A stretch of DNA of 64,000 nucleotides from positions 62,001-126,000 of the forward strand of contig CACMDY010000002.1 in assembly GCA_902612605.1 (NCBI GenBank), read 5' to 3'. Both the position numbers and the translations under genes were made by a program. Positions 40,594 through 43,741 of the stretch are shown piece after piece. The notes beneath the pieces are model-generated. The model was given only the letters and a program-made list of their open reading frames with translations. It was not told the origin of the DNA and ran no database searches. This stretch comes from an uncultured Pelagibacteraceae bacterium. Its GTDB lineage: Bacteria; Pseudomonadota; Alphaproteobacteria; Pelagibacterales; Pelagibacteraceae. Positions within the stretch are counted from its first letter, which is position 1, and each line of letters opens with the position of its first letter.

Positions 40594-40668
40594 GGTCCCT
40601 TCGTCTATCGGTTAGGACACATGGTTTTCATCCATGAAAGAGGGGTTCGATTCCCCTAGGGACCGCCA
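40594..40668 (+). tRNA. tRNA-Glu(UUC)
   Basis: Acceptor GGTCCCT pairs with AGGGACC, anticodon stem CATGG/CCATG with loop TTTTCAT (anticodon TTC), T arm AGGGG/CCCCT with loop TTCGATT, discriminator G and encoded CCA at 40666-40668. A protein start codon lies one base after the CCA. Confidence 0.97.
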
Positions 40669-40669
40669 A

Positions 40670-40924
40670 ATGCCATATTTTGTGTATCTTATTATAAGCA
40701 TTAATGATCGAAACTGTATTAGTTATGTTGGTTATACTAGTAATTTAACTAAACGAATTAATGAGCATAATTCTTCCAAAGGAGCAAAATTTACCAGAGG
40801 TAGAAAATGGAAATTAGCTTATAGTAAGATTTATAAATCAAAATCAATTGCAATGAGTGAGGAATACAAATTAAAAAAAAATATAAAATTAAGAAATAAA
40901 ATTAAGTTAAAATTTATAAAATGA
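40670..40924 (+). CDS. GIY-YIG domain endonuclease-like protein
   Basis: This 84-aa single-domain protein has VYLI at residues 5-8 and YVGYTSNLTKRINEHN at about 22-37, the GIY-YIG core with its conserved Arg, then FTRGRKWKLAYSKIY and an E-x-x-L-K-K segment matching small UvrC-type N-terminal/YhbQ-like proteins. The family (UPF0213) is widespread and its role is unclear, possibly nuclease activity in repair. The ATG one base after the tRNA-Glu CCA is the natural start; a longer frame would run into the tRNA. It overlaps the glycosyltransferase gene by 4 bases. Confidence 0.85.
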   Translation: MPYFVYLIISINDRNCISYVGYTSNLTKRINEHNSSKGAKFTRGRKWKLAYSKIYKSKSIAMSEEYKLKKNIKLRNKIKLKFIK

Positions 40925-41958
40925 AAATTTCTATACTGCTTCCATATAAAGAAAATTTTTCACCCGTTTATCCAGGAGCGGTGTCATTATTCCTTAAAGA
41001 TACTATTCCATTAAGTAAATTTAAAAAAAATATATTAGTATATGGAAATACTAGGTTTAAAAAAAAATTATTAAAAAATTATAAAAATTTAGATTTTAAG
41101 AATTATTTTTTTAAAAGTTCATCAAAATCCTATGTAGAAAAATTTATAGAAAATGAAAATTTCAACAAATCAAGTCTAATTGAAATACACAATAGACCTA
41201 ACTATGTAAATAGAATTTATAAGATAAATAAAAATATAGTTTTATATTTTCATAACGACCCTTTAAAAATGAAAAATTCAATTTCTTTAAATGATAGAAA
41301 AGAAATATTAAAAAAAACGATATTAGTTATATTTAATAGCAAATGGACTTATAACCAATTTATCAATGGCCTTGAAAAGAAATATTATAGAAATAAATTA
41401 AAAATAATTCATCAATCTACAAATAAAAAGATTGTAAATTTTAACAGCAAAAAAAAAATTATTATTTTTGTGGGAAGATTGAATAAATCAAAAGGGTATG
41501 ATCTATTTGGACATGCTGCTATAAATATCTTAAATAAATACTCAGATTGGAAGGTAGTAGTTATAGGTGATGAACCGAGAGAAAAACTAGTTTTTAACCA
41601 CAAACGATTCAAAGTTTTAGGTTTCCAAAGCAATAATAAAGTTATCAATTGGTTAAAAAAATCAGATATTTCTGTTGTGTGTTCTAGAATAGAAGAACCT
41701 TTTGGTCGTACCGCACTTGAAGCATCTAGTTCTGGTTGCGCTGTCATTATATCAAACAAAGGTGGTTTACCAGAGGCATGTCCAAAAGGTTTGAAAATTC
41801 ATAATTTAACACAAAGAAATATTGAAAAGAATATTGAAAAGTTAATTAAAAATAAGACTTTTAAAAAGGCATTACAAAAAAAAATTTATAAGAATTTTTA
41901 CCTTACTAATAACTTTATCACAAAAAAAATTGATAGTTACAGAGATAAATTGATTTAA
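40921..41958 (+). CDS. Glycosyltransferase family 4 protein (GT-B fold)
   Basis: This 345-aa cytosolic glycosyltransferase probably acts on cell-surface glycans. The N-terminal half has YPGAVSLFL at about residue 19 and LIEIHNRPNYVNRI at about 85. The C-terminal Rossmann half has IIFVGRLNKSKGYDL at about 180 and the ExxxxxxxE nucleotide-sugar site EEPFGRTALEASSSG at about 259, followed by NKGGLPEA. Donor and acceptor are unknown. It overlaps the GIY-YIG gene and is convergent with the recombinase gene, 6 bases away. Surface glycosyltransferases beside integrases are typical of variable regions. Confidence 0.85.
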   Translation: MKISILLPYKENFSPVYPGAVSLFLKDTIPLSKFKKNILVYGNTRFKKKLLKNYKNLDFKNYFFKSSSKSYVEKFIENENFNKSSLIEIHNRPNYVNRIYKINKNIVLYFHNDPLKMKNSISLNDRKEILKKTILVIFNSKWTYNQFINGLEKKYYRNKLKIIHQSTNKKIVNFNSKKKIIIFVGRLNKSKGYDLFGHAAINILNKYSDWKVVVIGDEPREKLVFNHKRFKVLGFQSNNKVINWLKKSDISVVCSRIEEPFGRTALEASSSGCAVIISNKGGLPEACPKGLKIHNLTQRNIEKNIEKLIKNKTFKKALQKKIYKNFYLTNNFITKKIDSYRDKLI

Positions 41959-41964
41959 GACTTG

Positions 41965-42918
41965 TTATAATTTAATTTTATTCAAAGCATTATTTTTAAA
42001 TATATTTGCCTCTCTAATATATCTTCTTACCATTTGTGTTGTTTTATGACCTGTCATAGCCATTATACTTCTCTCATCAGCGCCTGAATCGGCAGCTACT
42101 GTAGCAAAACCCGACCTTAGACTATGACCTGCAAAATTTTTGTTTTCGATACCTGCTATATTTAAATATTCTTTCATTAATAAAACTACAGATTGGTCAG
42201 TTAATCTTTTGTTTGTTAATGATAAACCTTTAGAAAATCTTCTAAAAATAGGTCCAGATTTAATTTTAGAAATTTCTAACCATTTTTTTAGATTTGTAAC
42301 AGGACAGTAAATTTCATTCTCGAAATAAGGAAGTCCTTTAGTCATTCCTTCTCCGAATTGGTCAGTTTTTGATCTTTTAACAATGATTTTTAAACCGTCA
42401 GGAACAAATTCTAAATCCTCATAATCAATTGAAATAATCTCGGTTCTTCTAAAACCTCCTCCAAAGCCAATTAAGATTATTGATTTATCTCTAAGTTTTT
42501 TTATTTCCTCAGTTTTTTGTTCATTTATTACATTAATAATTGATTTTAAATGATTGATTAATATAGGTTTTTTACCTTTTTGAATACTTCCTTTTACCCT
42601 TCTAATTCCCATTAAATTTTCAACAATGATTGGATGTTTTGTATCTAGATAATGCCCTTTTAGCCTATGAACCATGCTTATTGATACTAATCTTCGTCTT
42701 AAAGTGCTTATTTTAGAGTTTTTAGAGAGATGGGTTAGGTATAAGGAAACTATATTTGGCTCTGTTGGTAGTGAATTTAATCCATGCTTAGCACAAAAGG
42801 CTCCGAAGTCTTTAAAGTCAGATTTATAAGCTCTTAGAGTGTTATTTGACTTTGAGCTTTTAAGGTTATTTAAAGTTGCTTCATGAAGCGATTTTAGGTC
42901 TGTTGTCAGTTGATTCAT
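41965..42918 (-). CDS. Tyrosine recombinase / phage-type integrase
   Basis: This 317-aa site-specific recombinase has an N-terminal core-binding domain (residues about 10-100, with NTLRAYKSDFKDFGAFC). The catalytic domain has GGGFRRTEI (first Arg, about residue 155), a Lys in VKRSKTDQ (about 183), HSLRSGFATVAADSG (His-x-x-Arg, about 267), MTGHKTTQMVRRYIRE (His and nucleophile Tyr, about 287-300). All catalytic residues are present, so it may be active. It is closer to integrases of genomic islands than to XerC/D, judged from the N-terminal half. It lies about 1.3 kb from tRNA-Glu, a typical integration target, but no attachment repeat was found. Confidence 0.9.
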   Translation of the reverse strand: MNQLTTDLKSLHEATLNNLKSSKSNNTLRAYKSDFKDFGAFCAKHGLNSLPTEPNIVSLYLTHLSKNSKISTLRRRLVSISMVHRLKGHYLDTKHPIIVENLMGIRRVKGSIQKGKKPILINHLKSIINVINEQKTEEIKKLRDKSIILIGFGGGFRRTEIISIDYEDLEFVPDGLKIIVKRSKTDQFGEGMTKGLPYFENEIYCPVTNLKKWLEISKIKSGPIFRRFSKGLSLTNKRLTDQSVVLLMKEYLNIAGIENKNFAGHSLRSGFATVAADSGADERSIMAMTGHKTTQMVRRYIREANIFKNNALNKIKL

Positions 42919-42973: not shown

Positions 42974-43180
42974 ATGTCAAATGAATTAAAACTAAAGTTT
43001 ATGACTATAGATGGTGAAATTCCTACAAGCTATTTTTTAATTATATCTTTAGGTTTAACTATACTTAGTTATTTGGTTTACAAAAAAAATGGAAAATCAC
43101 TAGAAGTATATTTCTTATCTGTTTTAACAATAATTTTCTATTTATCTTATTTTATTCTAATTTTCGTTGGTCCTAGATAG
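42974..43180 (+). CDS. Small membrane protein of unknown function
   Basis: I do not recognise this 68-aa protein. It has two predicted membrane helices (residues about 18-36 and 46-65) separated by a short KKNGKS loop. It is divergent from the recombinase gene (55-bp gap) and lies just before the structured RNA at 43268. It may be an accessory of the integrated element. Confidence 0.5.
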   Translation: MSNELKLKFMTIDGEIPTSYFLIISLGLTILSYLVYKKNGKSLEVYFLSVLTIIFYLSYFILIFVGPR

Positions 43181-43253
43181 TTTGTTAACGCTATTCACAG
43201 CTGTTAAAAACCCTTAATAATCAACTATAAAGTGATACTAATCATATTTGCAC

Positions 43254-43262
43254 TATGATAAT
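43254..43262 (+). promoter_or_regulatory. Possible -10 element of the structured RNA
   Basis: TATGATAAT is a strong -10-like sequence; transcription would start near 43268, just at the first stable hairpin. No clear -35 is seen 16-18 bases upstream. Confidence 0.4.
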
Positions 43263-43267
43263 CTCTT

Positions 43268-43459
43268 AAATGAATTAAGAGGCAACTCTTAACTGACCAT
43301 CTGGGGAAAAATCGAGAGATTCAAGCCCAGAGGGCAGAAAACCACGCAGAGTAGCGCTAAAATTGCGGGGTGGAAGGCATGGCGGTAGCGCATACAACGA
43401 CGTGCCAAAAAACTACTGATCTTTGTACCTGAAAAGGTGCAGAGATACAGGGTTTTTTT
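43268..43459 (+). ncRNA. Candidate structured non-coding RNA, about 190 nt, class not recognised
   Basis: This stretch is much richer in G+C than its surroundings and has no plausible plus-strand gene. Hairpins found by hand are: TTAAGAG/CTCTTAA with GCAA loop (43275-43292); an 11-bp helix 43293-43305 with 43326-43337, with one bulge and one A-G mismatch, then a 4x4 internal loop and AATC/GATT with GAGA loop (43310-43321); ACCACGC with GCGGGGT (43341-43347/43365-43371, one mismatch); GGCATG with CGTGCC (43376-43381/43401-43406); and a 15-bp terminator stem with GAAA loop. GCGCTA (43354-43359) in one loop is complementary to TAGCGC (43386-43391) in the next, a possible pseudoknot. I checked it against SRP RNA, RNase P RNA, 6S and tmRNA hallmarks without a match. 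Confidence 0.7.
43416..43459 (+). terminator. Rho-independent terminator of the structured RNA
   Basis: The stem pairs 43416-43430 with 43435-43450: 15 bp with two G-U pairs, a single bulged A at 43447 and a GAAA tetraloop at 43431-43434. GG and a run of seven T (43453-43459) follow. The ogt start codon lies only 7 bases after the T-run. Confidence 0.75.
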
Positions 43460-43465
43460 CTTTAT

Positions 43466-43741
43466 ATGATCCTTAAAGGTACAAAATTTCAAATTAAAGT
43501 TTGGAAATACTTAAAAACAATTAAAAAAGGTAGTGTTTTAACCTATTCTGACGTTGCAAAAGGTATTAAAAAACCTAGAGCTGTTAGAGCTGTAGCCAAT
43601 GCTATTGGAAAAAACCCATATGCTCCTAAAATACCTTGCCATAGAGTAATCAGGTCTGATGGATCTCTTGGAGGATATTCTGGAAAAGGTGGTATAAAAA
43701 CCAAGAAAAAACTGCTCAAATCCGAAGGAATTTTGCTCTAA
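43466..43741 (+). CDS. ogt: Short methylated-DNA-protein cysteine methyltransferase (MGMT family)
   Basis: This 91-aa protein is the bare C-terminal catalytic domain of O6-alkylguanine-DNA alkyltransferase, without the N-terminal RNase-H-like domain. It has FQIKVWKYLKTI at about residue 8, RAVRAVANAIGKNP at about 38 (Arg finger) and the active site IPCHRVIRSDGSLGGYSGG-like segment at about 55, with the acceptor Cys present, so it is not an alkyltransferase-like (ATL) inactive form. No ribosome-binding site can fit between the RNA's T-run and the ATG. Translation may be leaderless or depend on read-through. Positions 43477-43485 are complementary to the terminator's 5' arm. Confidence 0.88.
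   Translation: MILKGTKFQIKVWKYLKTIKKGSVLTYSDVAKGIKKPRAVRAVANAIGKNPYAPKIPCHRVIRSDGSLGGYSGKGGIKTKKKLLKSEGILL

Follow-up and report, generated by a model that had tools for sequence, protein, structure and literature searches.

The stretch at positions 43268-43408 of the forward strand is a member of IMES-2 (Rfam RF02035), a known and unexplained class of SAR11 RNA. It lies in what we call the window, the whole 64,000 nucleotides of DNA that were analyzed. RF02035 matched the stretch with 162.9 bits (E = 5.8e-43, against a gathering score of 54.7), and positions 1-141 of the model aligned to 43268-43408 without a gap. The window RNA is like the class in its full-length match, its nested helices, all of which were present, and its SAR11 origin; one non-standard pair was marked, in helix H3. 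Of the relatives that we scored, the lowest reached 62.1 bits and the highest 166.3. Class membership is not new. Beyond the nested line of the Rfam model, we observed a kissing loop between hairpins H3 and H4, a terminator, a promoter element and several gene settings. We also added the independence of the RNA from its neighbors, a pattern of loss, and the lack of a recognized Hfq and 6S RNA, which together narrow the mechanism. On the sequence evidence, we consider that IMES-2 is probably an autonomous, trans-acting structural RNA that works as an RNA-protein particle, and we give this reading a probability of about 60%.

A sequence-only reading had described the RNA as unassigned, which was mistaken, and had guessed at an IMES family, which was correct. 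The Rfam covariance search that it proposed for the region placed RF02035 well above the gathering score. It had also stated that the hallmarks of SRP RNA, RNase P RNA, 6S RNA and tmRNA do not fit, and indeed none of these families matched here at E values up to 10. The other Rfam matches within that limit were five microRNA or snoRNA families, far below their cut-offs. IMES-1 (RF02034) belongs by name to the same marine RNA series and had no match in this region of the window; it matched in 0 of 397 genomes of the order, a count to be read beside controls that gave no match either. Weinberg and colleagues reportedly named IMES-2 in 2009, and the IMES RNAs are said to have been noted there for their abundance in ocean RNA. 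In the accessible portions of the open-licence literature we found no paper on IMES-2 function, and the only paper in which the term "IMES-2" was met is one on a squid genome. The term "imes" was absent from the available parts of PMC3840354, PMC13414033 and PMC2864571. The available part of a Red Sea start-site study, in which reads were mapped to SAR11 HTCC7211, leaves IMES-2 unmentioned (PMC5069720). By its description in the same partial text, Yfr103 of marine picocyanobacteria is likewise a conserved, structured marine noncoding RNA of unexplained function, and an abundant one, but it differs in belonging to other organisms, in its length of 290-328 nt and in having seven paralogues in one genome (PMC5069720).

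Conserved fold and loop-loop pairing

The sequence-only reading had singled out a folded, G+C-rich stretch, and this was confirmed at 43268-43459. The core together with the terminator (43262-43462) folded better than 200 of 200 dinucleotide-preserving shuffles, with a z score of -6.02. For the core by itself (43268-43408) the z score was -4.00, and 0 of 200 shuffles folded as well. To compare relatives, 158 loci were reduced to the 155 that were long enough (three were too short) and then to 43 at 95.5% identity, which were aligned with MAFFT blind to structure. Two collections contributed to the 158 loci and have contigs in common, which makes all-locus counts redundant. Across the 43 relatives, the helices of the Rfam model and the kissing loop together comprise 45 pairs, and 94.4% of their cells were paired; structures slid by one to three columns reached only 31.3-40.9%. 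Compensatory change, which had been named beforehand as the test of the fold, was found in 32 of the 45 pairs, against a shuffle mean of 18.5, and 0 of 500 shuffles were as high. RNAalifold, unprompted, recovered the same nested helices except the short helix at the tip of H2, and 25 of its 33 pairs were compensatory.

All four helices of the core are encoded on the forward strand. Helix H1 (43275-43292) has seven pairs closed by a GCAA loop; 100% of its cells were paired among the relatives, and four pairs showed compensatory change. Helix H2 (43293-43337) has 15 pairs, 11 plus 4, with a 4x4 internal loop (GAAA/CAAG) and a GAGA terminal loop, and 12 of these pairs were compensatory. Hairpin H3 (43341-43371, loop 43349-43363) contains one A.G mismatch in the window copy, and eight of eight pairs were compensatory. 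Hairpin H4 (43376-43406, loop 43385-43397) contains one G.A mismatch, with compensatory change at five of nine positions. The G.A position (alignment columns 131/149) was non-standard in all 43 relatives. Three GNRA loops had been claimed for the RNA. The claim stood for H1, whose loop was GNRA in 43 of 43 rows (by eye on the alignment, GCAA in 41, GCGA in one and GUAA in one), and failed for the H2 and terminator loops, which vary. The H2 loop was GAGA in 38 of 43 rows and GCAA in one, and it was replaced in four divergent rows of genera g2 and g8. No internal loop of the conserved fold was larger than the 4x4 loop of H2, and the longest unpaired run conserved at 90% was 4 nt (GCAA, GAAA and GAGA).

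The loops of H3 and H4 carry two complementary strands, GCGCUA at 43354-43359 and UAGCGC at 43386-43391, also on the forward strand. This complement had been noted from the letters as a possible pseudoknot; it lies exactly at those positions, and compensatory changes in three of the six pairs bear the suggestion out. Among the 43 relatives, 97.7% of the kissing-loop cells were paired. We counted eight compensatory cells in those three pairs; 0 of 500 shuffles reached eight cells and 2 of 500 reached three pairs. Slid versions of the loop were 2.7-52.7% paired, with at most six such cells in two pairs. The common set, GCGCTA/TAGCGC in DNA letters, occurred in 35 rows and GCACTT/TAGTGC in four, while GTGCTA/TAGCAC, GTACTA/TAGTAC, TCGCTG/TAGCGA and TCGCTC/TAGCGC occurred in one row each. 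The compensatory cells fell in four places of the family, namely the g2 and g8 rows, L150 (g9), L152 (g5) and L155 (g1). We infer at least four independent changes from this, rather than from a tree test. The evidence has limits within the alignment itself. Divergent rows are few, with 8 of the 43 differing from the common set, and two of the six pairs are invariant. The outermost pair is non-standard in five of the 43 rows, L153 carries non-standard pairs at two end positions, and on the measure of further pair types the loop did no better than shuffles (283 of 500). Overall, the covariation supports loop-loop pairing between GCGCTA and TAGCGC as a predicted element of the fold.

A dimer formed through a palindromic H3 loop was also considered and rejected. 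By eye, the GTGCTA, GCACTT, TCGCTG and TCGCTC forms are non-palindromic, and dimerization by this loop is not conserved because these four natural loop forms are no palindromes. As a separate observation, L152 (from genome G190 of genus g5) has H3 and H4 sequences far from those of the other g5-type rows, as if half of the RNA had been exchanged; its hairpins and its kissing loop, GTACTA/TAGTAC, are kept.

Promoter element, terminator and known small RNAs

A conserved element, CAACTATAAAGTGATAC, lies upstream of the core at 43222-43238 on the forward strand and was recognized by sequence conservation as a -35 region with an upstream extension. G(T/A/C)GAT was found 40-43 nt before H1 in all 43 dereplicated relatives, as GTGAT in 39 of them. 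Shuffles of the same upstream pieces gave a mean of 0.9 and a maximum of 6 of 43, and the same test 60-240 bases further upstream gave 1-3 of 43. In the redundant set the element was present in 155 of 155 testable loci, a set that leaves out L040 and L079, which are without the anchor, and one locus short of upstream sequence. Outside the anchor, C at -7 and A at -2 were fixed in 35 of 35 rows and A at -6 in 34 of 35. These 35 are the rows caught by the anchor of the positional count, which missed 8 of the 43; all eight were caught by the looser G(T/A/C)GAT test. The conserved element sits at the position of a -35 box relative to a -10-like hexamer, TATGAT, at 43254-43259 (forward strand), which a promoter scan listed as GTGATA-16-TATGAT with 9 of 12 consensus matches. 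Over 421 bases the scan listed five promoter-like sites where shuffles gave 1.4, and the TATGAT match is weak when taken alone. The predicted transcript start would be at about 43265-43268.

In this genome, the single occurrence of the strict form of the element, CAAYNANNARGTGATA, was the one at the RNA (G000:C2:105222, which is window position 43222). Sixteen genomes held nine matches in seven genomes, four of them at an IMES-2 gene, and the IMES-2 promoters of G001, G007 and G036 deviate from the strict form. The remaining five matches are at chance level because a backward control pattern also gave five, in four genomes. A regulon sharing this promoter was rejected on that ground. The window showed no enrichment of a looser form, with 34 matches against 42.6 expected, and AA(A/G)GTGATA occurred there three times. 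Since the strict pattern occurs elsewhere only at chance level, the element, judged by its occurrences, is one that belongs to the RNA gene and no general promoter of these genomes.

The claim that the RNA has its own terminator proved sound. An intrinsic terminator at 43408-43459 (forward strand), outside the Rfam model, consists of a hairpin at 43408-43457 followed by a T run, and its folding was kept across relatives. The 62 bases after H4 folded with -17.3 to -24.6 kcal/mol in the 43 relatives and were more stable than each of 50 shuffles in 42 of them, and at least five T in eight bases stood behind the hairpin in 39 of 43. The terminator sequences differ between lineages, and a scan with a terminator consensus did not list the window hairpin.

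A size and a gene layout of this kind, with its own promoter element and an intrinsic terminator with a U tail, are usual for small regulatory RNAs, and the RNA might act in trans by antisense pairing with mRNAs independently of Hfq, for example through lineage-specific single strands or an opened kissing loop. Against this reading, the conserved unpaired runs do not exceed 4 nt and the two loop strands are paired between themselves. A search for Hfq (PF17209) had no match in 20 SAR11 genomes, this one included, while 5 of 14 control genomes matched. A classical Hfq-dependent antisense RNA is unlikely because a conserved unpaired seed is missing and Hfq was recognized in none of those 20 genomes. 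Base pairing that is specific to lineages, or by kissing strands that an opening of the fold sets free, may be compatible with the absent conserved seed, and we regard Hfq-free antisense action as an unlikely reading.

The RNA might instead stand in for 6S RNA, as an abundant RNA that binds RNA polymerase. The two are alike in size class and in being stand-alone structured RNAs. A long duplex with a large central bubble is the hallmark of 6S RNA, whereas the IMES-2 fold contains no such duplex, and RF00013 was not among the matches at E values up to 10. We keep a 6S-like role as a rival because RF00013 was recognized in 0 of 40 SAR11 genomes, against 5 of 14 control genomes. In the same direction, the term "6S RNA" is absent from the main text, as far as it was available, of a paper on structured RNAs of HTCC1062 (PMC2704228). 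However, 20 genomes negative for IMES-2 were also without a recognized 6S RNA, so that a simple replacement is not indicated, and we hold such a stand-in to be quite doubtful.

IMES-2 does not fill the place of the SRP RNA because that RNA was found elsewhere, in this genome on another contig (C1:452640-452734). The bacterial SRP RNA has a GNRA-capped hairpin with internal loops, features that it shares with IMES-2, but its family (RF00169) had no match at the IMES-2 site. At E values up to 0.001 it matched in 16 of 19 SAR11 genomes, with 10 over the cut-off.

Gene settings, distribution and loss

In the window, the RNA gene is followed by an ogt-like gene at 43466-43741 (forward strand; DNA-binding domain of O6-methylguanine-DNA methyltransferase, PF01035, 2.7e-32), a neighbor that lies outside the RNA gene. 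Among relatives, IMES-2 occurs in four gene settings, two of which face a gene on the opposite strand. At 130 of 154 loci, at least one of the neighbors typical of genus g1 (recombinase, DUF2938, ogt, EamA) was present. At 22 loci the RNA follows mnmA, and 21 of these face c10, an opposite-strand gene for a membrane protein; at two loci, of genus g2, it lies between an SNase-like gene and an opposite-strand SRAP gene. The next downstream gene is therefore on the opposite strand in 23 of 154 loci (c10 in 21, SRAP in two). L152, L156, L157 and L159 were kept out of this count for orientation. L152 has the mnmA/c10 setting, L157 the SNase/SRAP setting and L156, from a single genome of g8, lies between selO and rmuC; L159 is cut by a contig end. 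Neighbor names derive from Pfam matches of one example each, except that c10 had no Pfam match and EamA was named by eye. The promoter element and the terminator travel with the RNA between settings. Taken together, these arrangements strongly indicate that IMES-2 is independent of its neighboring genes.

The sequence-only reading had offered a cis-acting leader of ogt as one possibility, in which the RNA would control that gene as a leader or attenuator. The ogt start codon does lie six bases after the terminator T run here, and read-through may feed ogt; such read-through is possible in this window as a side effect because of that short distance. As the function of the family, an ogt leader is excluded because the gene settings vary and the downstream gene is not constant: the RNA follows mnmA in 22 of 154 loci, faces SRAP in two and lies between selO and rmuC in L156, and the 420 bases before ogt are without the RNA in G036, which carries it at C1:250340, and in 18 RNA-negative genomes of the genus. 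We thus rate this role as very improbable.

The RNA had also been described as sitting beside a recombinase gene. This is true here, and the neighborhood looks incidental because, by eye, at least 10 of the 18 RNA-negative genomes of the genus keep the recombinase start and ogt. That the RNA belongs to a mobile or phage-like element, as its differing settings among genera and the adjoining tyrosine-recombinase gene (PF00589) in genus g1 might suggest, is hardly credible, given one copy in each of 200 positive genomes, searches of viral contigs (by one strict pattern) and of phage and plasmid collections (by blastn) that gave no match, a recombinase that remains where the RNA is absent, and none beside the RNA in the g2, g5, g8 and g9 loci read.

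Several other features of this region were noted. Between the recombinase and the RNA, 42974-43180 encodes a hydrophobic ORF of 68 amino acids with no Pfam match; some relatives that lack the RNA have a similar ORF whose end overlaps the start of ogt in TGATGA. To the left of the recombinase, in 40594-42918 of the window and in L031-L149, the genes vary between genomes (glycosyltransferase-like and methyltransferase-like, by eye), and the region looks like a hypervariable island, which in the window is flanked by a tRNA-Glu gene on one side and the tyrosine recombinase on the other. Within it, an ORF at 40634-40924 appeared GIY-YIG-like by eye, and its true start is probably further downstream because the listed start lies inside the tRNA-Glu gene (40594-40668).

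With strict filters, RF02035 detected IMES-2 as a single copy in 200 of the 397 genomes from the order; among the 151 that are at least 90% complete, 75 were positive. A DNA pattern of the two loops had at least 119 matches in a named genome collection, and among the matches listed, 116 of 119 were named Pelagibacteraceae or Pelagibacterales; the other three, L071 (Halomonas), L123 (Polynucleobacter) and L125 (Nostoc), were dropped as chance pattern matches. A broader covariance model that we built, R1, was positive in 3 of 385 genomes of the class, all Pelagibacteraceae, under strict filters that lose weak matches. Among the collections searched, IMES-2 was found only in Pelagibacteraceae.

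Hidden divergent copies were considered and rejected, on low covariance scores and on an ogt locus without a G+C-rich stretch in 18 genomes of the genus. With laxer filters, RF02035 gave at most 14.5 bits in 29 RNA-negative genomes (cut-off 54.7), and R1 gave at most 13.7 bits in 38. Of 20 RNA-negative genomes of the genus, 18 gave an ogt match, and in the 420 bases before it the best 100-base G+C fraction was at most 0.43, compared with 0.51 and 0.61 in two RNA-positive genomes. By eye, the recombinase start and a small membrane ORF are retained in at least 10 of the 18. IMES-2 was also absent from the one-contig genomes G003, G005, G011, G013, G020 and G024.

On a GyrA tree of 101 genomes (100 of 149 matching genomes plus the window; rooted by us on g3/g4), of which 47 carry the RNA, its presence followed the tree, with 15 parsimony changes against a mean of 33.8 and a minimum of 25 with shuffled labels. 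If the RNA was gained once, 18 losses follow, and one clade of 28 genomes is wholly without it. For 25 genomes at least 97% complete, picked from the GyrA set and not all the genomes of that completeness, five changes were needed, or six losses after a single gain. Assembly gaps probably account for part of the absences in the full set, such as those in near-identical relatives of this genome. Because the RNA is present in g2, g5, g6 and early g1 branches, we infer that it arose at the base of the family, or close to it, and was then lost repeatedly; regain by transfer is also allowed. IMES-2 has probably been lost several times. It would seem to be useful but dispensable, since several SAR11 lineages are without it.

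Proposed role of IMES-2

Sequence comparison shows that the IMES-2 gene comprises a conserved promoter element, four helices, of which H3 and H4 would be locked together by the 6-bp kissing loop, and a terminator hairpin. The RNA stays constant while its neighborhoods differ among genera. We propose that it acts in trans as a compact structural RNA; a regulator acting in trans was among the possibilities of the sequence-only reading and may hold. A protein would recognize the fold, and the candidate contacts are the GNRA loop of H1, the 4x4 internal loop of H2, the AAA linker between H2 and H3 and the A-rich flanks of the kissing loop. The resulting particle might serve as a scaffold, as an enzyme regulator or as a protein decoy, and it would not depend on antisense pairing with mRNAs.

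A bolder form of this proposal casts IMES-2 as the core of a hitherto undescribed RNA-protein particle with a global role, such as control of RNA polymerase or the ribosome, expressed from its own dedicated promoter and lost repeatedly once the role became unnecessary, in a lineage without a recognized Hfq or 6S RNA. We regard this form as speculative and rather unlikely.

SAR11 bacteria are among the commonest cells of the ocean. For this RNA of theirs, two familiar mechanisms, that of an mRNA leader and that of an Hfq-dependent small RNA, become unlikely. IMES-2 is now testable, since its kissing loop has natural compensatory variants, its gene is marked by a promoter element, and genomes that carry the RNA can be compared with related ones that lack it.
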